Virus record (IMG/VR): IMGVR_UViG_3300047095_000140
Location: 1-25,350 of that record
Length of the DNA: 25,350 nt
Reading direction: 5' to 3' (one strand)
Source of the DNA: a virus
Position 1 is the stretch's first letter. Each line of letters starts with the position of its first letter. Position numbers and translations under genes: made by a program. This document shows, in pieces, positions 137-25,350 of the stretch. Under the pieces are notes generated by a model, which was not told where the DNA came from, did no database searches, and saw only the letters and a list, made by a program, of their open reading frames with translations.

Positions 137-664
137 TTGGCAAACGGGAAACAGTCGTGCTATAAACGGGCTATGTTCAAGTCACTCCCTTTTACACCCC
201 GCGTCGTCAAGGCGACCGAGCAGCGTTTGAACGCTATATATGCTGCTTCTAATTTAGGGTTAAAAGGGGATGCACTGGCGTTAGCAGCGGGGATGCTGCC
301 TACGGAATATAGACAATTGTGCCAATTTGACCCAATGGCCGAGATGGCCGCACAAAAAGGCAAGGCCGATAATGAACTGCAAGCTGCCCGGCGATTGAAC
401 GAGGCGTCTGAAGGCGGCGACGCTAAAGCGAGCCTGGCGATCCTTACGCACGTTCACGGTTGGCAACAAACTTCCAACGTCAACATAAATGTTGAACAGC
501 GGATTAGCATCATATCCGCGCTAGAAGAAGCCAAGTCAAGGGTGATCGAAGGCAGTGCTACAATAGACGAAGCCCCCGAACGCATCAACGGTCGAGGGCT
601 TCTTACCAATAACGATGAGGACACATCGCATGGCTACCAACATTCTAACGCAAGCGCGGCTTAA
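137..664 (+). CDS. Probable terminase small subunit
   Basis: A 175-aa, mostly helical protein directly upstream of the terminase genes, where the DNA-recognition (small) subunit of the packaging motor is expected. Residues about 40-70, with the stretch ALALAAGMLPTEY, look like a helix-turn-helix. A long helical segment follows (residues 75-105), and the C-terminal tail is polar and low in complexity. The role inferred is binding phage DNA at the packaging site and handing it to the large subunit. The start used is TTG at 137 with a weak AGGT at 121-124; ATG at 173 (residue 13) is an alternative with no better ribosome site. The last 35 bases overlap the following HNH gene, so the odd C-terminus may have been remodelled by that insertion. 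The assignment rests mainly on position, as I do not see a diagnostic family signature. Confidence 0.5.
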   Translation: MANGKQSCYKRAMFKSLPFTPRVVKATEQRLNAIYAASNLGLKGDALALAAGMLPTEYRQLCQFDPMAEMAAQKGKADNELQAARRLNEASEGGDAKASLAILTHVHGWQQTSNVNINVEQRISIISALEEAKSRVIEGSATIDEAPERINGRGLLTNNDEDTSHGYQHSNASAA

Positions 665-1148
665 AGAACTCTTGCACTACAACCCTGCAACGGGGCTATT
701 TACGTGGCTGCAAAACAAAGGTACTCAGCGCAAAAACGCTATTGCCGGTTCGCGGCGCGCTAAAGGTTACATTGAGATTAGCATCGACCGCAAATTACAC
801 CGAGCGCATCGGCTTGTGTGGTTGTACGAATACGGCTGTTTTCCCGATGGAGAGATTGACCATATAAACCGCGTTCGGTTTGACAACCGACGCGTTAATA
901 TCCAAGTAGCAACGCGCAGCCAAAACATGCAAAATAGCGGCTTAGGGCGTAATAACGTCTCGGGTCATAGAGGTGTTGGTTGGAATAAACAACACCAAAA
1001 ATGGCGTGCGCGCATAAACATTAACAGCGTAAAAATTTGGCTTGGCAATTTTGATACTGTTGAAGCGGCGGTAGCCGCGTATACTAACGCTGCAAGTATT
1101 CACCACGCATATAGGCTGCAATGCAAAAGCCAATCTACTCCACCATAG
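630..1148 (+). CDS. HNH homing-type endonuclease with AP2 domain, between the terminase genes
   Basis: A 172-aa protein with an HNH nuclease core: His60 in AHRLVW, the EIDHIN motif (Asp77-His78), and Asn residues at 86, 90 and 99. A C-terminal AP2-type DNA-binding domain follows (about residues 111-165, GHRGVGWNKQHQKWRARI, then WLGNFDTVEAAVAAY). HNH-AP2 proteins of this size are typical free-standing phage homing endonucleases that nick or cut an allele lacking them. ATG at 630 is chosen over ATG at 615 because GAGG at 617-620 lies 9 bases before it. The gene overlaps the small terminase gene by 35 bases and the large terminase start by 28 bases. A role in packaging is possible, since HNH proteins accompany some terminases, but the AP2 domain favours homing. 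It shares architecture with the minus-strand gene at 23280-23762. Confidence 0.88.
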   Translation: MATNILTQARLKELLHYNPATGLFTWLQNKGTQRKNAIAGSRRAKGYIEISIDRKLHRAHRLVWLYEYGCFPDGEIDHINRVRFDNRRVNIQVATRSQNMQNSGLGRNNVSGHRGVGWNKQHQKWRARININSVKIWLGNFDTVEAAVAAYTNAASIHHAYRLQCKSQSTPP

Positions 1149-2789: not shown

Positions 2790-5026
2790 TGGCATATCAA
2801 GACACAGGCATTAACGAAGCGGGCGCAGTCTCGTCAGGCGGCACTAAGTCTGACCGTGACAACGGCGAGATGCTGGCGACCATGCGGACGCGCCTGACGA
2901 TGGCAATCGCCGCGTATTCGGATAGCCGTGAGGACGAGCTGGACGACCTGCGCTTTCGTGCTGCATCACCAGATAATCAATGGCAGTGGCCCGCTGACGT
3001 GCTGGCAACCCGCGGCTCGGTGCAAGGCCAGACGATCAACGCCAGACCTTGCCTGACCATTAATAAGCTGCCGCAGCATGTGCTGCAAGTGACCAACGAC
3101 CAGCGCCAGAACCGGCCCAGTGGCAAGGTAATACCGGCTGACGACAAGGCCGACATTGAAGTGGCCGAAATATTCAACGGTCTGGTGCGGCACATCGAGT
3201 ATATCTCGGACGCGGACGTGGCCTACGACACCGCGTGCGACAACCAGGTCACCTTCGGTGAGGGTTACTTCCGCATCCTGACCGAATACTGCGACGACAA
3301 CACGTTTGAGCAGGATTTGCGGATTGGGCGCATCCGCGACAGTTTTAGCGTCTACATGGATCCCACAATCCAAGATCCCTGCGGTTCGGACGCCGAATGG
3401 TGCTTCATCAATCAAGAAATTACCAAAGACGAATACGAACGCGAGTTTCCCAATGCCGCGACACTCTCAAGCCTGCAATACGGCGTGGGCGACGGGCAGT
3501 TAAACGCGTGGATTAACCAAGACACGGTAAGAATCGCGGAATACTTCTACATCAAGCATGAAGCCAAGAAGCTCAACCAATACCCCGGTGGAATGACCGC
3601 AATAGCGGGGTCGCCCGAGGCCAAACAGATTGAAATGATGGGTTTGGCTGCAACAAGAACCCGAGATGTGGACGTTCGGACGGTCAAATGGTGCAAAACC
3701 AACGGTTTTGAGGTGTTAGAAGAACGCGATTGGGCGGGCAAATACATCCCCGTTATCCGCGTAATTGGCAACGAATTTGAGATTGATGGTCGCATGTACG
3801 TCAGCGGGCTGGTGCGTAACGCCAAAGACGCGCAGCGCATGTATAACTATTGGGTTAGCCAAGAGGCCGAGATGCTGGCGTTGGCACCCAAGGCACCGTT
3901 TATTGGCTACGGTGGTCAATTTGAGGGTTACGAGCAACAGTGGAAAACGGCCAACATCAACAACTGGCCGTATCTGGAAGTCAATCCCGATGTGACCGAC
4001 GGGCAAGGTGGCCCGCTGCCGCTGCCGTCAAGGGCGCAGCCGCCGATGGCCTCCAGTGGCCTCCTGCAAGCCAAGGCGGGGGCGTCAGACGACATTAAAA
4101 GCTCGACGGGGCAGTATGACTCCAGCTTGGGCGCCACCAGCAACGAACGCTCTGGGCGCGCCATCTTGGCGCGTGAAAAACAGTCGGATACCGGCACCTA
4201 TCACTACGTGGACAACCTGGCGCGCGCCATTCGCTACGCCACACGGCAACTGGTTGATCTGATTCCAAAGATCTACGACACGCAACGCATCGCCCGCATC
4301 ATTGGGCTGGACGGCGAAACGGATCAGGCTATGATTGACCCGACGCAACCGATGCCGGTCAAGAAGATTCAGAACGAGCAAGGCATTGTCATTAAGAAAA
4401 TCTACAACCCCAACGTCGGCAAATACGACGTGGCGGTGACGGTTGGCCCAAGCTACATGACCAAGCGCCAAGAATCGCTGGACGCCATGAGCCAACTGCT
4501 GCAAGGCAACCCGCAACTGTGGGCGGTGGCCGGTGACCTGTTCATCAAACACATGGATTGGCCGGGCGCACAGGAAATGGCAAAACGCTTTGCCAAGACG
4601 ATTGACCCCAAACTGCTGTCCGACGAGGACGATCCGGCATTGCAAGCGGCCAACCAGCAGATGCAGGCAATGGGGCAAGAAATGCAGCAGATGCAACAGA
4701 TGCTGCAAAACGTCAGCCAGTCGATGGAAGCGCAGACGTTGAAGGTCAAAGAGTTTGAGGCCGAGGTTAAAGCCTACGATGCGGAAACCAAACGCATCAG
4801 CGCGGTGCAGGCCGGAATGAGCGAAGAACAGATCCAAGACATTGCAATGGGCGTGGTCGCGGCGGCAATGGAATCGCAAAGCATGATGAACCAGATGCCG
4901 GAGATGCGCGAAGAATCTATGCCTATGCAACCGGAACAAATGCCACCCGAAATGATGCCGCCTGAAATGATGCCGCCTGAAATGATGCCACCGCAAGGGA
5001 TGCCACCGATGGGAGCGCCACAGTGA
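2789..5026 (+). CDS. P22-type portal protein
   Basis: A 745-aa protein, close to the 725 aa of P22 gp1. It forms the dodecameric ring at one head vertex through which DNA enters and leaves. The N-terminal third has family features (TINARPCLTINKLPQHVLQVTNDQRQNRP around residues 73-101), and the conserved ERSGRAI motif lies at about 453-459. The C-terminal part, about 615-680, is a Gln/Met-rich predicted coiled coil (QQMQAMGQEMQQMQQM), matching the helical barrel that P22 portal extends into the head. The last 30 residues are a Pro-Met-Glu tandem repeat. The start is GTG at 2789, overlapping the preceding stop by one base, so translation is probably coupled. It lies in the usual order between terminase and scaffold/coat genes. 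Confidence 0.95.
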   Translation: MAYQDTGINEAGAVSSGGTKSDRDNGEMLATMRTRLTMAIAAYSDSREDELDDLRFRAASPDNQWQWPADVLATRGSVQGQTINARPCLTINKLPQHVLQVTNDQRQNRPSGKVIPADDKADIEVAEIFNGLVRHIEYISDADVAYDTACDNQVTFGEGYFRILTEYCDDNTFEQDLRIGRIRDSFSVYMDPTIQDPCGSDAEWCFINQEITKDEYEREFPNAATLSSLQYGVGDGQLNAWINQDTVRIAEYFYIKHEAKKLNQYPGGMTAIAGSPEAKQIEMMGLAATRTRDVDVRTVKWCKTNGFEVLEERDWAGKYIPVIRVIGNEFEIDGRMYVSGLVRNAKDAQRMYNYWVSQEAEMLALAPKAPFIGYGGQFEGYEQQWKTANINNWPYLEVNPDVTDGQGGPLPLPSRAQPPMASSGLLQAKAGASDDIKSSTGQYDSSLGATSNERSGRAILAREKQSDTGTYHYVDNLARAIRYATRQLVDLIPKIYDTQRIARIIGLDGETDQAMIDPTQPMPVKKIQNEQGIVIKKIYNPNVGKYDVAVTVGPSYMTKRQESLDAMSQLLQGNPQLWAVAGDLFIKHMDWPGAQEMAKRFAKTIDPKLLSDEDDPALQAANQQMQAMGQEMQQMQQMLQNVSQSMEAQTLKVKEFEAEVKAYDAETKRISAVQAGMSEEQIQDIAMGVVAAAMESQSMMNQMPEMREESMPMQPEQMPPEMMPPEMMPPEMMPPQGMPPMGAPQ
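4937..5008 (+). repeat. Tandem repeat encoding the Pro-Met-rich portal tail
   Basis: Within the 3' end of the portal gene, a unit of 15 bases encoding P-P-E-M-M is repeated about three times, flanked by degenerate copies (Q-M-P-P-E-M-M before, P-P-Q-G-M-P-P-M after). Copies differ only by a few third-position or single-base changes (CCACCC versus CCGCCT), so repeat number could change by slippage. It adds an extended, probably disordered tail after the coiled coil. Confidence 0.85.
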
Positions 5027-6508: not shown

Positions 6509-7720
6509 ATGGCTAACAGCCTACTGACCATTGATATGATAACGAGGAAGTGTCTCGAAATACTTGAGAACAACCTTGTCCTTTCACGTAACGTGAACAA
6601 AGAATACGACGACAGCTTTGCCGTCGAAGGTGCCAAGATTGGCTCGACCCTGCGGATTCGTCTGCCGGATCGTGCGCTGGTGACCGACGGCGCCGCCCTG
6701 CAAGTGCAGGACGACAACGAGCAGTACACCACGCTGACGGTTTCTAGCCAGAAGCACATCGGCATTAACTTTACCTCTGCCGAACTGACTATGCAGTTGG
6801 ACGATTTCGCGGAACGTGTTTTGAAGCCGCGTATCAGCCAATTGGCGTCCAGTGTGGATGCTGACGTTGCCAACGCCTACAAGTCTATTTTCAACACCGT
6901 AGGCACTCCGGGCACCACGCCCGCCACCGCGCTGGTTCTGTTGCAAGCGCAGCAGAAGCTGAACGAGTCGGCGGCTCCCATGTCGCCGCGCTACGCGACT
7001 GTCAACCCCGCCGCTAACGCTGGCCTGGTCAACGGCATGACCGGTTTCTTTAACCCGACGGGCACGATTTCCCGCCAGTTCAAGACCGGCATGATGGGTG
7101 AGGGTGTTCTTGGCTTTGACGAAATGAATATGTCTCAGTCAATTGTCAACCACACCACGGGCAGTCGTGCGGGCACCATTCTGGTAAACGGTGCGGTTAG
7201 CACGCAAGGGCAAGCCACCATCAGCATTGACGGTCTTACCGGTGCAACTGACACGGTAACTGCTGGTGATGTGTTTACCATTGCTGGCGTGTATGCGGTC
7301 AACCCGCAGACCCGTCTTAGCACTGGTAGCCTGCAACAGTTTGTCGTGACTGCGGCGCAAACGGGTGCTGGTAATGCTTTGGCAAACATGGCTATCTCGC
7401 CGCCCATGTACACGGCCTCAAATGCGCTGGCAACCATTGATGCGTTCCCCGCTGACAACGCTGCGGTGACGTTCGTGGGAACCGCGTCAACCGTGTATCC
7501 GCAAAACTTGGTCTATCACAAGAACGCGATTACGCTGGCTACGGCTGACCTCTTGCTCCCGCAAGGTGTCGATATGGCTTCGCGTCAAGTGCATAACGGG
7601 ATCTCGATGCGTATCGTGCGTCAATACGATATTAACAACGACCGTATGCCTTGCCGTGTCGATGTGCTGTATGGTTTCAACACCATTCGCCCACCGATGG
7701 CTTGCCGTATTTTTGGGTAA
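6509..7720 (+). CDS. Major coat protein, P22 gp5-like
   Basis: A 403-aa coat protein (P22 gp5 is 430 aa). The N-terminal arm and helix (MANSLLTIDMITRKCLEILENN) and the strand KIGSTLRIRLPDRALV match the HK97-fold opening of the P22 coat family. A Gly/Thr/Val-rich beta segment at about residues 220-300, including DVFTIAGVYAVNPQTR, corresponds to the P22 insertion (I) domain. The C-terminal region has GISMRIVRQYDINNDRMPCRVDVLYGF. Hundreds of copies build the icosahedral shell with the scaffold. AGGAG at 6498-6502 lies 6 bases from ATG, giving strong translation. The gene is GC-rich with high codon bias, as expected for the most abundant virion protein, and is followed by a hairpin at 7728-7748. 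Confidence 0.95.
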   Translation: MANSLLTIDMITRKCLEILENNLVLSRNVNKEYDDSFAVEGAKIGSTLRIRLPDRALVTDGAALQVQDDNEQYTTLTVSSQKHIGINFTSAELTMQLDDFAERVLKPRISQLASSVDADVANAYKSIFNTVGTPGTTPATALVLLQAQQKLNESAAPMSPRYATVNPAANAGLVNGMTGFFNPTGTISRQFKTGMMGEGVLGFDEMNMSQSIVNHTTGSRAGTILVNGAVSTQGQATISIDGLTGATDTVTAGDVFTIAGVYAVNPQTRLSTGSLQQFVVTAAQTGAGNALANMAISPPMYTASNALATIDAFPADNAAVTFVGTASTVYPQNLVYHKNAITLATADLLLPQGVDMASRQVHNGISMRIVRQYDINNDRMPCRVDVLYGFNTIRPPMACRIFG

Positions 7721-8421: not shown

Positions 8422-9131
8422 CCACTACGGCTGGCGATCAGATCAACGGCGCGTTGCGGCTGATCGGTCAATTGGCCGAAGGCGAGACGCCATCGGCGGC
8501 AACGTCAGCCGACGCGCTGACCGCAATGAACCAGATGCTTGATAGCTGGTCGTCTGAGCGTCTGTCCGTGTTTTCAACGCAAGACCAAATATTTACTTGG
8601 CCTGCTAATACCGCAACACGCACTCTTGGGCCAACGGGTGATTTTGTTGGCAACCGTCCGGTATTGGTGGACGACTCAACGTATTTCCGCGACCCGTCAA
8701 ACAACATTAGTTTTGGCATCAAACTGATAAACCAGGCGCAATACAACGGCATTGCGGTAAAGACCGTTACCAGCACCTACCCGCAGGTCATGTTTGTAAA
8801 CATGACCATGTCCAATATAGAAATGACAATCTATCCGGTGCCGACTAAAGCGTTGGATTGGCACATTGTCAGCGTCAACGAGCTGGTCGAACCGGCTACG
8901 CTGGCGACCACGTTGGTGGTGCCGCCGGGTTACCTGCGGGCTTTTCGGTTTAACCTGGCGTGCGAGATCGCCGCCGAGTTTGGCGTTGAGCCACCGCCCC
9001 AAGTGCAACGGCTTGCGATGACCAGCAAGCGCAACATCAAGCGCATCAACAACCCCGACGACGTTATGAGCTTGCCGTATTCCATCGTGGCGACTCGCCA
9101 GCGGTTTAATATCTACAGTTCCAATTATTAG
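8418..9131 (+). CDS. P22 gp4-like head-tail connector (tail accessory factor)
   Basis: A 237-aa protein whose N-terminus shows the signature of the gp4 family: INGALRLIGQLAEGE, then PSAATSADALTAMNQMLDSW. The middle is beta-rich (VFSTQDQIFTWPANTATRTLG) and the C-terminus is a long helix with PPGYLRAFRFNLACEIAAEFG and SKRNIKRINN. In P22, gp4 (166 aa) binds the underside of the portal after packaging and begins the tail; some relatives have peptidoglycan hydrolase activity, but I see no clear catalytic motif here. It starts with ATG overlapping the AT-hook gene stop and ends in a four-base overlap with the convergent HNH gene at 9128. The extra length relative to P22 lies mainly in the beta-rich middle. 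Confidence 0.9.
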   Translation: MTTTAGDQINGALRLIGQLAEGETPSAATSADALTAMNQMLDSWSSERLSVFSTQDQIFTWPANTATRTLGPTGDFVGNRPVLVDDSTYFRDPSNNISFGIKLINQAQYNGIAVKTVTSTYPQVMFVNMTMSNIEMTIYPVPTKALDWHIVSVNELVEPATLATTLVVPPGYLRAFRFNLACEIAAEFGVEPPPQVQRLAMTSKRNIKRINNPDDVMSLPYSIVATRQRFNIYSSNY

Positions 9132-9670
9132 CGCGGATATTGGCTATGCTTACCTTTGACAAATCCTTTTGTGCCTTTAACCGCACGAAGCAAGCCTTTG
9201 CTTTTGTACGCGTTGATAGCGTGTTGGATGTTTTGCTGGTGCGTAAGCAGTTCCAAATTGTCAATGCAATTATTGGCTCGGTTAAGGTCTTTATGGTTGA
9301 TTTCCAAGCGACCTTCAATAGGCCCAACAAAGGCTTCCCACAAAGCTCTATGCAGAGAAACCCTAGTGTATTTTCCATTTTTGCACGCAGCAAAACGCAA
9401 ATAATGGTCAGAACCAGCGGGTGTTTTAACTTTTCGATATGCTGCATCGCCTTGCCATGTCTTTCCATTTTTAATCATACTGGCGGTGGCTATGCTAGTG
9501 CCAAGAAATCCCGCAACCTCACGAAGAAAAACGCCGTTTGCGAGCATTTGCTTTGCGATAGGGATTTTTGTGGCATCAAGTTTCTTAGCCCTGCCAACAC
9601 GCCGCACGTTGGCAAAATTACTGATTTCGTAAAAACCCTCGTAACCAAAAACCGGCTTCCATATTTCCAT
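9128..9670 (-). CDS. Free-standing HNH endonuclease with NUMOD4 domain, antisense in the virion operon
   Basis: A 180-aa protein. Residues 1-25 (MEIWKPVFGYEGFYEISNFA) are a NUMOD4 DNA-binding motif. Residues 37-70 look like a resolvase-type helix-turn-helix (VAGFLGTSIATASMIKNGK). The HNH core follows, with His107 (SLHRALW), Asn125-His126 in INHKDLNRANN, and Asn138, then a basic C-terminal tail. These are homing endonucleases that copy themselves into alleles lacking the gene. It is the only minus-strand gene in the 137-22472 block, sits between the gp4-like and fibre-like genes, and converges on the gp4 stop. Its start ATG (9670) has GGAG upstream and an extended -10 promoter at 9698-9706, so it can be expressed without the late operon. 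It is AT-richer than its neighbours, consistent with recent arrival. Confidence 0.93.
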   Translation of the reverse strand: MEIWKPVFGYEGFYEISNFANVRRVGRAKKLDATKIPIAKQMLANGVFLREVAGFLGTSIATASMIKNGKTWQGDAAYRKVKTPAGSDHYLRFAACKNGKYTRVSLHRALWEAFVGPIEGRLEINHKDLNRANNCIDNLELLTHQQNIQHAINAYKSKGLLRAVKGTKGFVKGKHSQYPR

Positions 9671-21743: not shown

Positions 21744-21970
21744 AAGACAAGCTAACCTTTATTGTTACCACAATGGTCAGTTTTACGTTGTGCGTGGTCA
21801 TCGGCGGCATGGTGTTTGCGCTGTGCTACGGTCTGTTTGATAAAGACGTAAACAACGACGATATATTTGCGCTGCTCGGGCCAGCGTTTCAAACGATTGT
21901 CGGCGGGTTCATCGGACTGCTGGCAGGAATAAAATTCTCAAATGCAAACGAGGGTAACGATGTTAAGTAA
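21740..21970 (+). CDS. Two-TM membrane protein, second holin or antiholin candidate
   Basis: A 76-aa protein with two membrane segments: about residues 6-34 (FIVTTMVSFTLCVVIGGMVF) and about 44-68 (LLGPAFQTIVGGFIGLLAGI), joined by an acidic loop (DKDVNNDDI). The short positive N-terminus (MKDK) and two helices give a class II holin-like layout. It overlaps the 3-TM holin-like gene by four bases and the endolysin start at 21960 by 11 bases, so all three are made together. Holin, antiholin and accessory roles cannot be told apart from sequence. Confidence 0.8.
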   Translation: MKDKLTFIVTTMVSFTLCVVIGGMVFALCYGLFDKDVNNDDIFALLGPAFQTIVGGFIGLLAGIKFSNANEGNDVK

Positions 21971-22472
21971 CTTCCCCGCATCACTGGCGCTGATCCTAAA
22001 ATCAGAAGGCGGCTTTGTAAATCATAAAAATGATCCCGGCGGCATGACAAACCTCGGCGTGACGCGCAATGTTTGGAGGGAGTGGGTAAATCGAGATGTT
22101 GACGAGGCCGAGGTGCGAGCCTTGACGCCCGAGCTGGTGACGCCGCTCTACAAACAGCGATACTGGGATGCCTGCAAGTGCGACGATCTGCCCCGAGGCG
22201 TGGATTATGCGGTGTTTGACGCTGCGGTGAACATGGGGCCCGGACGCGCCGCAAAGCTGTTGCAAGCGGCGCTAGAGGTAAAAGCTGATGGCAGTATCGG
22301 CAGGGCCACGATCGCTGCTGCGACCGCTGCCGATCCGGTTGAGCTGCTGGAGGCGTTTAGCCTGGGTAAGGAAGCGTTTTACCAAAGCCTGCCGACTTTT
22401 GCGACGTTCGGCAAAGGTTGGCTTAACCGTGTGGCGCACGTGCAAGATGCGGCAGAGGGGATGATGGGTTAG
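21960..22472 (+). CDS. Endolysin: GH108 muramidase with peptidoglycan-binding domain
   Basis: A 170-aa protein. Residues 11-35 (LILKSEGGFVNHKNDPGG, then MTNLGVT) are the GH108 catalytic signature, with Glu16 in E-G-G the likely acid; it cleaves N-acetylmuramic acid-N-acetylglucosamine bonds in peptidoglycan. Residues about 82-165 (DYAVFDAAVNMGPGRAAKLL, then DGSIGRATIAA) match the PG_binding_3 domain usually fused to GH108. ATG at 21960 is chosen because GAGGG at 21950-21954 lies 5 bases upstream; ATG 21942 is in frame but lacks a good site. There is no signal peptide or N-terminal membrane segment, so it needs a holin for release. It is the last plus-strand gene; the convergent cluster ends 24 bases later. 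Confidence 0.94.
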   Translation: MLSNFPASLALILKSEGGFVNHKNDPGGMTNLGVTRNVWREWVNRDVDEAEVRALTPELVTPLYKQRYWDACKCDDLPRGVDYAVFDAAVNMGPGRAAKLLQAALEVKADGSIGRATIAAATAADPVELLEAFSLGKEAFYQSLPTFATFGKGWLNRVAHVQDAAEGMMG

Positions 22473-22496
22473 ATTGAATTAGTATCTCGCGGTCGG

Positions 22497-22613
22497 TCAT
22501 CGCATCACCAGCACTGTGCAGATAATGACCAACACGACAACCACCAAGCCGATCCTGCCGCAGTCGGCAAAGCCTTCTGAATACCCTTCGTCGTAATCAT
22601 TCCAGTTACCCAT
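22497..22613 (-). CDS. Micro-protein with single TM helix (38 aa)
   Basis: A 38-aa minus-strand frame with a strong GGAGGA about 4-5 bases before ATG. The protein has an acidic aromatic N-terminus (GNWNDYDEGYSEGFADCG) and a C-terminal membrane helix (GLVVVVLVIICTVLVM), ending in Arg. It overlaps the zinc-ribbon gene by 8 bases in another frame. It is the last gene of the cluster. The strong ribosome site, clean hydrophobic helix and overlap support a real gene; the function is unknown. The topology, with the N-terminus possibly outside, could suit a small regulator of a membrane enzyme, but this is speculation. Confidence 0.65.
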   Translation of the reverse strand: MGNWNDYDEGYSEGFADCGRIGLVVVVLVIICTVLVMR

Positions 22614-22761
22614 AAATCCTCCGATCTTTTACCGCCAGAAAAGATACGCTCTTTCGCTCAAAGCAGCTTTTGCATTTCCATATCCGGCGCGTGCCTTTTG
22701 TGATCTTGACAAGTTTGTAGCCTGCCTCCCGTCGGCAGGACTGGCAGACGGGGGCGATCAT
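22606..22761 (-). CDS. Zinc-ribbon micro-protein (51 aa)
   Basis: A 51-aa minus-strand frame starting MIAPVCQSCRREAGYKLV. Four cysteines are spaced as two CxxC knuckles (Cys6/Cys9 and Cys30/Cys33) separated by 20 residues, the classic zinc-ribbon geometry, with basic residues between them (KITKGTRRIWKCKSC). Such small zinc ribbons in phages may bind nucleic acid or a host protein such as RNA polymerase; no specific role is claimed. The start overlaps the stop of the 62-aa gene as ATGA, so translation is probably coupled. It ends 8 bases inside the 38-aa gene. Confidence 0.75.
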   Translation of the reverse strand: MIAPVCQSCRREAGYKLVKITKGTRRIWKCKSCFERKSVSFLAVKDRRIYG

Positions 22762-22946
22762 CGCCGGGCCTTCTTCACGTTGTTAAGCCCCAACACTTGT
22801 ATCTCATAGCGGCGCATCGTGGCAGACACGTCGGTGTGCGCGACTGGCGTCGGCACAAACTTATTGTTGGCATCGACGACGTAGATGTTACGGCTGCGGA
22901 GATACGCTATGGCGGCGTCTAGCTTCGTGGTTAGGTTCGTTTCCAT
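22758..22946 (-). CDS. Small protein of unknown function (62 aa)
   Basis: A 62-aa protein: an N-terminal helix (NLTTKLDAAIAYLRSRNIYV), a short strand region (VVDANNKFVPTPVAHTDVSA), and a basic C-terminal tail (MRRYEIQ, then NNVKKARR). A helix followed by strands and a basic tail could be a small winged-helix-like or DNA-binding fold, but I recognise no family. AAGGAGG at 22956-22962 gives it a near-perfect ribosome site, inside the upstream gene, which it overlaps by 16 bases. Confidence 0.75.
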   Translation of the reverse strand: METNLTTKLDAAIAYLRSRNIYVVDANNKFVPTPVAHTDVSATMRRYEIQVLGLNNVKKARR

Positions 22947-23143
22947 TTGGTCGTTGCCTCCTTAAAGAGTTCGATCCGTTCCCGCGTAACCCGCAGGCTG
23001 TTATACCGCTGGTGCAGACGCTCCAACACCACGATACGCCGTAGATTGGCGCGCTCCTCATTCAACATATCCAGCACCTCGGCTTCGGTCTTGGTGCCAA
23101 GCGTGTGGTTCAGCTCACGCCAGGTTAGCTTTTGTGTTTTCAA
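22931..23143 (-). CDS. Small helical phage protein (70 aa), function unknown
   Basis: A 70-aa protein, almost wholly helical and charged: KLTWRELNHTLGTKTEAEVL, then DMLNEERANLRRIVVLERLH and RYNSLRVTRERIELFKEA. The pattern L-T-W-R-E-L, E-x-E-V-L-x-x-L-x-x-E, then R-x-H-Q-R-Y-x-x-L-R-x-x-R-E-R-x-E-L occurs in small proteins of other phages without known role. The start is TTG at 23143; the GGAGGA six bases upstream and the MKTQKLTW reading support it. It overlaps the 54-aa gene by 29 bases. Confidence 0.75.
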   Translation of the reverse strand: MKTQKLTWRELNHTLGTKTEAEVLDMLNEERANLRRIVVLERLHQRYNSLRVTRERIELFKEATTKWKRT

Positions 23144-23279
23144 TTTGTTCCTCCAGTTTGGCGATGGTTCGCATCACCTTAATTAACCCGCGCTTGGCGA
23201 CCGCATACTGTCGTTCTCGAATCACCAGTTCCCGTAATGCAACCTTCAGTTTGGCTTTCGCCTGTTCTTGCCTTGTCAT
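23115..23279 (-). CDS. Coiled-coil micro-protein (54 aa)
   Basis: A 54-aa minus-strand frame, MTRQEQAKAKLKVALRELVI followed by RERQYAVAKRGLIKVMRTIA and KLEEQIENTKANLA. It is rich in Lys, Arg, Glu and Leu with a heptad-like pattern, so a coiled coil is likely. AAGGAG lies 7 bases before ATG, and the ATG begins directly after the HNH stop. Its 3' end overlaps the TTG-started 70-aa gene by 29 bases. Function unknown; both this and the 70-aa protein could pair as helical partners, which is only a suggestion from composition. Confidence 0.7.
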   Translation of the reverse strand: MTRQEQAKAKLKVALRELVIRERQYAVAKRGLIKVMRTIAKLEEQIENTKANLA

Positions 23280-23762
23280 TTATTTGCTCCTTGCAAATGC
23301 GCCGTGAAATTTATCTCTGGCTTCCGTAGCGACAAGTTCTGCCAATTCAAAATCGCTAAAGAAACCAATATGCTTGCGGGTCTTATTTACTCGTAAAACA
23401 ACGCGCCATTTTTTAGTCTGTTTGTACCATTGAACATTCTTTGCCCCAGATATGCTATCTGCGCGCAAACGAGCGTTGTACTGATTTTCAGTTCTAGTCG
23501 CTGCGCGTAAGTTCTCTACGCGGCTATTGTTGGGGTTAGCGTCAATGTGGTCTATCTCATCAGGCAACCAACCATAGTGATATAGAAATACAAGCCGGTG
23601 CAAATAATAAATGTGATCGTCAATGTGTATGGTTCTGCGCCCATTTTTTAGCCCGCACCCTGCTAAATCACCGACGTGGACGCAATGCGAGCGAGAAATT
23701 TTCCAGTATAAAAGCCCATCAGCGTAAGAAAATAAATGCTGCAAATACTGTTGTGTAATCAT
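23280..23762 (-). CDS. HNH endonuclease with AP2 domain, in the helicase cluster
   Basis: A 160-aa protein with His55 (YLHRLVFLY), the EIDHIDANPNNSRVENL core (Asp71-His72, Asn78/79, Asn84) and Asn93 of the HNH fold, then an AP2-like DNA-binding domain at about 105-157 (GAKNVQWYKQTKKWRVVLRV, then HIGFFSDFELAE). The same two-domain layout and similar phrases (HRLVWLYEYG versus HRLVFLYHYG, EIDHI) appear in the endonuclease at 630-1148, so the two are relatives but not recent copies. Its ATG overlaps the helicase stop (ATGA). The DNA is AT-richer than the helicase gene, consistent with an independent insertion. Confidence 0.92.
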   Translation of the reverse strand: MITQQYLQHLFSYADGLLYWKISRSHCVHVGDLAGCGLKNGRRTIHIDDHIYYLHRLVFLYHYGWLPDEIDHIDANPNNSRVENLRAATRTENQYNARLRADSISGAKNVQWYKQTKKWRVVLRVNKTRKHIGFFSDFELAELVATEARDKFHGAFARSK

Positions 23763-25093
23763 TTTAGAGAATCCATCGCTAGGTCAGATAAAGAGCGTTT
23801 GTCGTGCAATGCTACGTAAATCTTTTCGTCTACCGTGTCCTCGGTCAGCAGGACGTAAACCCACACCGCGTGCCGCTGGCCGCTGCGGTGTAGCCGCCCG
23901 ATGGTCTGCTCGAACAGTTCCAGCGACCACGGCAACGACAGGAACACCATGTGACAGCCACCGAATTGCAGGTTGAGGCCGTGGCCCGCCGACTTCGGGT
24001 GCGCCAGCAGCAGCTCGACCTTACCGGCGTTCCAACGCTCGATGGCGTCCGGTTCGTCCAGCGTCACCGCACGCGGGTAGCGGCGCTGTAGTTCGGCCAG
24101 TTCCTCTTGGTATTGGTAGGCGATGATCGTGTTGGCGTGCTGGTTCTCTGTTAGCAGGTCGTCCAGCAGTTCAAACTTGTGGTCGGAAAACCACACCGGC
24201 TTTTGCGTCACGATGAACTTGCCGGGTCTGGTCGGATGTGGCTTTTTCGTCGTGTCGTAGACGAAGCCGCTGCTCATCTGTTGCAGCTTGCCCGTCACCA
24301 CACCGGCGTTCGCGGCGATGGCCTGGGCGTCGGGGAACTGCACCATGAAGTCCTTTTTCATGGTCTTGTATTCCGTCATCTCCATCGCGCAACGCATCTC
24401 GACGATGTGCAGCGGCGGCAGCTTGTCCTTGTATTCGCCAGCATCCAAGACAAACGTCGCCTTGCGGATACGCTCCATGACCATCGGCAGCGCGTCGGCG
24501 CGCGGCTCCCAGTCGCCGTAGTCACGGTTGATGCAGTGGAAATACTGTTGCAGAAAGGCACCCTTGCTGCGGCCAAGAAGTGACTGGTCGATGACCTTGC
24601 ATTGGCCGAATACGTCCTCCAGCCCGTTGCTGGTGAACGAGCCGGTCAGCCCCCACCGGATCGGCATGGCGTCCAGCACCTTCAGCAGTGCCTTGAACCG
24701 CTTGCCCGACGGATTTTTAAGGCGCGTCAGCTCGTCGAACACCACGCCGTCAAACTGCAACGGCTGTTCGGCCAGCCATTGCAGGTTGTCGTAGGTGGCG
24801 ACCACGACCTGCACGTTGGCTCGCAACGCCTTGACGCGCTGCGTCGGTGTGCCGATGACGACCGACAAGGACAACTCGGGTGCCCACAGCTTGATCTCAG
24901 TCGGCCAGACCGAATCGGCCACGCGTTTAGGCGCGACGACCAGAAACCGCTGCACCACGCCGGCGCGCAGCATGTCGCGCATGGCGGTGAGCGTCAACGC
25001 GGTCTTACCCGCACCAACGGGGGCAAGAATCATCGCCCTGTCCGACTCGAACAGGAAGTCAGCGGCTAGTTCTTGATAAGGCCGGAGTGCCAT
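23759..25093 (-). CDS. SNF2-type helicase / DNA-dependent ATPase
   Basis: A 444-aa superfamily 2 ATPase with the motif order of SNF2 proteins. The Q-like start is LRPYQELAADFL (3-14), motif I APVGAGKTA (24-32), motif II DELT at 120-123 (in place of the usual DEAH), motif III LTGSFTSN (149-156), motif V HPKSAGHGLNLQ (365-376) and motif VI QTIGRLHRSGQ (396-406). It probably translocates on DNA in replication, recombination or repair, or supports transcription. Phages commonly carry this short form beside a VRR-NUC nuclease, as here, where the upstream gene overlaps it by 28 bases. AAGGAG lies 7 bases before ATG. All key motifs are intact. Confidence 0.94.
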   Translation of the reverse strand: MALRPYQELAADFLFESDRAMILAPVGAGKTALTLTAMRDMLRAGVVQRFLVVAPKRVADSVWPTEIKLWAPELSLSVVIGTPTQRVKALRANVQVVVATYDNLQWLAEQPLQFDGVVFDELTRLKNPSGKRFKALLKVLDAMPIRWGLTGSFTSNGLEDVFGQCKVIDQSLLGRSKGAFLQQYFHCINRDYGDWEPRADALPMVMERIRKATFVLDAGEYKDKLPPLHIVEMRCAMEMTEYKTMKKDFMVQFPDAQAIAANAGVVTGKLQQMSSGFVYDTTKKPHPTRPGKFIVTQKPVWFSDHKFELLDDLLTENQHANTIIAYQYQEELAELQRRYPRAVTLDEPDAIERWNAGKVELLLAHPKSAGHGLNLQFGGCHMVFLSLPWSLELFEQTIGRLHRSGQRHAVWVYVLLTEDTVDEKIYVALHDKRSLSDLAMDSLK

Positions 25094-25347
25094 TGGTCAA
25101 CTCCTTCCTTTGTCCATAAGCATGCGTAGTTCTGTTGTGTGCGGCGCATTTCCTCGGCAAACAAGCCTTGCAACTTGGAGCGCCGGCCGTGGGGTGCTTT
25201 CAACTCCACGAACCATGTGCCGCCATTCGGCAGGCAGGCGATGCGATCTGCCACACCGCGCTGCGAGGGCGACTTGAACTTGTAGGTGCGCCCGCCGCTG
25301 CGCTGCACGACCCAATCAAAATAGTGTTCGACTTCTTTTTCTAGCAT
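25066..25347 (-). CDS. VRR-NUC domain nuclease
   Basis: A 93-aa protein, the usual size of a stand-alone phage VRR-NUC. Conserved residues are visible: Glu4/Glu6 in the first helix, KFKSPSQRGVADRIACLP with Asp34, WFVELKAPHG with the Glu48-x-Lys50 pair, and Gln60. This is the PD-(D/E)xK nuclease core, likely acting on branched or junction DNA together with the neighbouring SNF2 helicase. The ATG at 25347 is three bases from the window edge, so its ribosome site and promoter, and any upstream extension, cannot be seen. It overlaps the helicase gene by 28 bases. Confidence 0.9.
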   Translation of the reverse strand: MLEKEVEHYFDWVVQRSGGRTYKFKSPSQRGVADRIACLPNGGTWFVELKAPHGRRSKLQGLFAEEMRRTQQNYACLWTKEGVDQWHSGLIKN

Positions 25348-25350
25348 GTT

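Follow-up and report, generated by a model that had tools for sequence, protein, structure and literature searches.

Five overlapping small genes of a freshwater phage probably form two separate sets at the distal end of an exchangeable, nin-like gene block

According to the available part of PMC8022706, the nin region of the lambdoid phages consists of nonessential small genes which are packed by ATGA overlaps and close the early right operon at its 3' end; two nin genes are linked there to recombination and Holliday-junction resolution. The locus compared here is part of a stretch of 25,350 nucleotides (the window; positions 1 to 25,350 of the IMG/VR virus record IMGVR_UViG_3300047095_000140) and comprises five overlapping small frames on the minus strand at 22,497-23,279, named O1 to O5 in the direction of translation. 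It resembles the nin regions of lambda, P22 and L, as far as that available text describes them, in that very small ATGA-overlapping genes end an early block, that gene content varies between relatives and that genes for recombination or Holliday-junction processing lie nearby (PMC8022706). Of the window's overlaps, O3/O4 and O5/sixth frame are joined by ATGA as in a nin-type chain, whereas O1/O2, O2/O3 and O4/O5 overlap without ATGA. Further differences are the upstream block, which here encodes a VRR-NUC nuclease and an SNF2-type helicase, and the far border, which is formed by a convergent endolysin gene instead of a Q gene. Since none of O1-O5 matched a nin family in PHROGs or Pfam, the region appears to work like a nin region without being one. 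We consider it likely that the five genes belong to two separate sets and form the distal end of an exchangeable small-gene block of this nin-like kind. The block is probably an early operon; its genes lie on the same strand and overlap up to the contig edge.

The window terminase is closest to that of DSL-LC05 (70.6%), a phage from Dishui Lake; the available part of PMC10611076 assigns this phage to a family proposed for uncultured lake phages. A VRR-NUC/SNF2-helicase pair is present in many phages, of which the Corynebacterium phage CL31 and the Streptococcus phage Javan244 share the overlap of nuclease gene and helicase gene, but neither O1 nor O2 is present in the stretches searched. Likewise, O2 is absent from the searched stretches of the VRR-NUC/SNF2 phages DSL-LC05, ACF1, BL94 and AH2, and is thus no general partner of this helicase; a role as a general helicase subunit is unlikely. 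When the DSL-LC05 gene following the helicase was compared with O1, hhalign gave 0.7%, and with O2 no match was obtained; both assignments were rejected. No record among 50,697 phage records covered 80% of positions 22,300-25,350, and nothing on O1-O5 was found in the available parts of PMC8515928 and PMC3556154.

The minus-strand block starts at the contig edge with the VRR-NUC nuclease gene (25,066-25,347; phrog_93 endonuclease, E 4e-20), the first gene of module 1, for which the label was taken from annotated relatives; in relatives, too, it precedes the helicase gene. The SNF2-type helicase gene of the same module (23,759-25,093; PF00176, 55 bits at a cutoff of 24.9; phrog_62, E 8e-125) is followed by an HNH_3 endonuclease gene (23,280-23,762; PF13392, 53.5 bits) and then by O1 (23,115-23,279; 54 aa, ATG start), O2 (22,931-23,143; 70 aa, TTG start within O1), O3 (22,758-22,946; 62 aa), O4 (22,606-22,761; 51 aa) and O5 (22,497-22,613; 38 aa). 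The overlaps are 29, 16, 4 and 8 nt, and the ribosome sites are AAGGAG before O1, GGAGG before O2, AAGGAGG before O3 and GGAGG before O5, while O4 starts in its ATGA overlap with O3. In these respects, the first-pass annotation was confirmed: it had listed five minus-strand frames of these lengths and overlaps, each with a ribosome site or an ATGA, downstream of helicase and nuclease genes, of which the window contains the SNF2-type helicase, the VRR-NUC and the HNH nuclease. A sixth frame of 25 aa (22,423-22,500, minus strand) is coupled to O5 by ATGA. Its N-terminus is common to loci L004, L085, L086 and L091 (handles of this form denote loci of related phages), where the frame has 39-40 aa, so the copy in the window is a truncated remnant, shortened beside the end of the GH108 endolysin gene. 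The latter (21,942-22,472, plus strand; PF05838, 102.7 bits) forms the right-hand border of the exchange zone and is found after the tail in relatives also. Searches for RNA families and tRNAs yielded none, and a promoter scan yielded five candidates compared to a mean of 3.2 in shuffled sequence, which is not clearly above chance.

Coding status was examined by substitution patterns. Pooled pN/pS values were calculated from homologues with at least 60% amino acid identity, excluding codons within overlaps, and amounted to 0.20 for O1 (n = 8 homologues), 0.31 for O2 (n = 139), 0.23 for O3 (n = 18), 0.15 for O4 (n = 11) and 0.21 for O5 (n = 10); L110, a copy of the window itself, is included in the sets where the script found it and adds no differences. 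With this self copy excluded, the differences at codon positions 1/2/3 numbered 34/23/65 for O1, 1769/1116/3313 for O2, 144/73/425 for O3, 95/55/408 for O4 and 66/25/118 for O5, which is an excess at the third position for each frame among sequences that are related and hence not independent. The O4 protein is identical to those of L083 (dS 0.44) and L084 (dS 0.57) over the codons compared, and the O5 protein is 100% identical to that of L092 (dS 0.56, 35 non-overlapped codons). None of 2000 dinucleotide shuffles of 22,497-23,279 was fully covered by same-strand ORFs of ≥ 38 codons, the mean cover being 0.55. These patterns indicate that all five frames are protein-coding genes in relatives. 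In compact phage DNA, small frames could also arise spuriously or by degeneration, and both the lack of any Pfam or PHROGs family above threshold for O1-O5 and the remnant state of the sixth frame would fit this explanation. Purifying selection in all five frames and the absence of fully tiled shuffles speak against it; by the codon patterns it is refuted for O1-O5 and has a negligible probability. Constraint on codon substitutions, which the first-pass annotation had proposed as a check, was thus found throughout, and the frames are indeed kept in related phages, yet in different company. In MW202483, a GenBank relative (L001), the O2 homologue occupies the frame 3399-3647, whereas the annotated gene starts at 3452 in another frame; such genes are therefore missed by annotation. 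The phage PW916 has no annotated gene at the position of its O2 homologue.

Gene neighbourhoods were counted in loci which were mostly found through one of the genes counted, so that all following frequencies are biased. O2 follows the helicase gene in 79 of 80 loci of the scan with the helicase, the exception (L081) being a sequence that ends 232 nt past the helicase, and O1 is present in 67 of these loci. Of the 28 loci obtained in two scans that used O1 only, 26 have the order helicase-O1-O2, and the remaining two, L315 and L316, are weak, short matches. Among 145 distinct O2 loci, O1 was found in 126 and an upstream helicase was scored in 136, to which L001, L060 and L080 are to be added, where the helicase end overlaps O2; for L120, L191, L198 and L223 no VRR-NUC or helicase match was obtained in the sequence examined. 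Where more than 200 nt separate the helicase from O1/O2 (27 loci), O1 and O2 occur together in every case. With this constant linkage to the nuclease-helicase pair, O1 and O2 are regarded as a linked pair which belongs to the VRR-NUC/SNF2-helicase module. The commonest gene after O2 (34 loci, L026 and 33 others) encodes about 71 aa and starts at the O2 stop; by eye it resembles the DSL-LC05 gene directly after the helicase and is perhaps another part of the module.

In IMG/VR, at least 585 stretches of viral contigs match the O2 family. Sixteen residues (W, H, Q and many R and E) are invariant in 34 members, and the AlphaFold model comprises three confident helices (pLDDT 88.8), consistent with the helical character noted beforehand. 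O2 is basic, with a net charge of +6, and O1 strongly so (+7); a helical nature of O1 was read from the amino acid sequence only, as was the transmembrane character of O5. When the O2 model was compared with the PDB by Foldseek, nothing reached E ≤ 0.001; the best hit (E 1.7) was to helical hairpins of coronavirus nsp8, and VIA Z scores went up to 6.0. These values are below those of a common helical arrangement and were treated as chance, so no known fold was assigned. Matches in BFVD were uncharacterised phage proteins (best E 2.6e-4), and comparison of the O2 sequence with solved structures yielded none (best E 1.3). Homology was detected to gp42 of the Stenotrophomonas phage AXL_3 (Axeltriavirus; hhalign 98.2%, 57 residues, 33% identical). 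In AXL_3 and in the matching stretch of PW916, the O2 homologue lies among replication genes; in AXL_3 it overlaps the following DNA polymerase I gene by 4 nt, and in both phages the matches to VRR-NUC and helicase are situated some 3 kb downstream. AXL_3 differs from the window in having no O1 match.

Standalone VRR-Nuc proteins cleave four-way junctions, as stated in the available part of PMC4103454. As small basic proteins made right after the helicase, O1 and O2 could assist the processing of branched replication or recombination intermediates, in which O1 would act together with O2; we give a role of the pair in branched-DNA processing or replication restart about an even chance. The fixed place of O2 behind the VRR-NUC/SNF2 pair makes such a role testable. 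Alternatively, O2 might be a transcription regulator of late genes at the end of the early operon, with O1 as a leader gene which sets the O2 level. The Javan244 gene following the helicase belongs to phrog_36 (transcription regulation), and O2, being small, basic and helical with invariant arginines, would suit such a function. But hhalign gave a probability of 0.2% for O2 and the Javan244 regulator, no helix-turn-helix family matched O2, and the AXL_3 homologue lies inside the replication genes, which makes a regulator improbable.

O3, O4 and O5 were found in other surroundings. Sixty distinct O3/O4 loci were pooled from the scans, including doubtful O3-like matches of about 30 residues in helicase loci such as L019, L023 and L027; helicase and O2 lie upstream in 20 of them (window included) and a Lar-family gene in 24. 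O3-O4-O5 occur in order in 21 of the 60, and all five genes in order in the window only. With the O3 profile as query, 57 distinct loci were examined, not counting five that were returned under older ids; helicase-O1-O2 lies upstream once and Lar 16 times, O4 lies downstream in 22 and O5 in 19 loci, and for 25 loci no marker module was recognised. Other modules upstream of the tail contain a Sak4-like gene with a Cas4-type exonuclease, or an Erf-like gene with a YqaJ-type exonuclease. Judged from these neighbourhoods, O3-O4-O5 are a linked trio in a swappable right-hand tail, which becomes attached to different recombination modules. In L002, the gene at 4082-4474 beside O3, annotated as 'group-specific protein' in MW202825, matches a RusA-like Holliday junction resolvase (phrog_244, E 2.7e-23).

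As for the products of the tail, O4 is zinc-ribbon-like by its four cysteines, both CxxC motifs being invariant in 14 of 14 aligned members, which bears out the zinc ribbon expected among the five. O5, with its acidic N-terminus and one hydrophobic stretch, is likely a membrane peptide. The O3 model is weak (pLDDT 75, pTM 0.37) and gave no match to viral structures at E ≤ 0.001. The Lar-family neighbour was assigned by PF14354 (38.4 bits at a cutoff of 28.6), and its function, going by the Pfam name, is presumably restriction alleviation. The word Lar does not occur in the review PMC3874165. With a Lar gene ahead of the tail elsewhere, counter-restriction is a reasonable, unproven guess for O3-O5; they are presumably accessory host-interaction proteins, some of which may serve restriction evasion. 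More specifically, O3-O5 could counter restriction or another host defence, as the Lar gene that precedes them in related phages presumably does, an explanation to which the above-cutoff Lar genes and the variable loci with small genes lend some plausibility. The connection is one of association, however, and other phages have RuvC-like, RusA-like or SSB-like genes near the tail in place of Lar. Lar resembles the tail genes in being small and neighbouring O3, whereas O4 shares with it the zinc-ribbon look only: the families listed in a scan of 14 O4 members do not include PF14354, and phrog_599 is not listed for the O4 of the window. O3 and O5 have no Lar-family match in Pfam or PHROGs, and no Lar gene lies beside O3 in the window. 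We therefore hold this explanation as tentative. Of the role in host takeover or anti-defence which the first-pass annotation had considered, the part on O3-O5 retains circumstantial support from the Lar genes, and the part on O1-O2, with their replication and recombination neighbours, is weak.

The border between the two sets coincides with a change in similarity. The window is similar to L222 (97% over 22,932-23,281), L003 and L004 as far as 22,932, the end of O2, and similarity to L083 (92%) begins at 22,925, downstream of O3 codons 1-7. By these breakpoints, the AAGGAGG, the start codon and the first codons of O3 are located within or next to the O2 tail, and the body of O3 is of other origin. 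Two modules have thus been brought together by recombination in this freshwater phage; they meet within the 16 nt shared by O2 and O3 (junction 22,925-22,946, minus strand), where the 3' end of O2 supplies O3 with its ribosome site and start codon. In L003, L004 and L222, a different small gene uses the same embedded ATG.

It had been suggested beforehand that the dense coupling marks products made together as one set, and the five genes could accordingly form a functional unit, e.g. a host-takeover or anti-defence complex, with ratios fixed by translational coupling. The overlaps of 29, 16, 4 and 8 nt invite this explanation, as short overlaps are enriched among the subunits of complexes in cells according to the available part of PMC10666635, and O3-O4-O5, taken alone, do occur together in the 21 loci counted above. 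Nevertheless, the five-gene order, for which a search had been proposed, is confined to the window among the 60 distinct O3/O4 loci; O1-O2 and O3-O5 keep different partners, the junction falls on the O2/O3 border, and the embedded starts serve unrelated genes. A single set of all five is thus largely refuted and very unlikely, and in view of this case the subunit meaning of short overlaps should not be assumed for small phage genes. In phages, genes may overlap tightly where an exchange took place and need not encode a complex, a point to be considered when such genes are interpreted by guilt by association.

A next frame follows O2 in 132 of 146 distinct loci (114 of these starting inside O2; 31 families), O3 in 51 of 51 loci (22 families) and O5 in 30 of 31 loci (10 families); these counts are approximate, as a simple start score and families by BLAST linkage were used and some frames may be spurious. 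Since the embedded starts feed many unrelated families, tight coupling is no mark of a functional set. ATGA ends were found in 62% (O2), 83% (O3), 56% (O4) and 94% (O5) of distinct loci, and 30.6% of 1296 ORFs of ≥ 100 aa in these phages show ATGA coupling, which makes dense coupling less remarkable than it appears. The start codon of O2, TTG or ATG, lies within O1, in most cases 23-32 nt ahead of the O1 end. By a simple rule, the start is TTG in 87 and ATG in 35 of 122 distinct loci with O1, whereas among 20 loci without O1 it is ATG in 18, with no start in range in two. The invariant O1 residues L42 and E43 sit on the O2 ribosome site, and the Glu codon of this LE motif is GAG:GAA 102:15 compared to 181:173 elsewhere in O1. 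SD-like sites are present in 72 of 89 O2 tails ending in ATGA versus 58.6 expected from synonymous shuffling, and 0 of 500 shuffles reached 72. Because the sequences are related, these codon biases are strong hints rather than exact probabilities; selection of the embedded ribosome sites for coupled translation is supported by synonymous codon bias, though unproven.

It is conceivable, if doubtful, that O1, O2, O3 and O5 carry portable translation adapters in their tails, which would serve any gene recombined behind them. A ribosome site and/or start codon within a conserved gene end would give a newcomer gene immediate coupled translation, also where the N-terminus becomes a hybrid like that of O3 in the window. 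If so, the overlaps would be standing sockets for the swapping of accessory genes in the phage population.

Upstream of O1, the HNH gene seems to have been inserted as a mobile gene behind the helicase. Most relatives lack it, and it is only 47% identical in L003/L004, where the helicases share 96% and 95% identity; it was counted as an insertion on account of this patchy occurrence and divergence next to near-identical helicases; its start overlaps the helicase stop by ATGA. In L065, an inserted block (7202-7510 and neighbours) lies between helicase and O1 with O1-O2 still paired, and contains, among other small genes, one for a protein of winged-helix-like type (HTH_11, E 2.5e-5, narrowly below the cutoff). 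The 25 kb of the window contain three HNH_3-like endonuclease genes, at 23,280-23,762 (minus), 615-1148 (plus) and 9128-9670 (minus).
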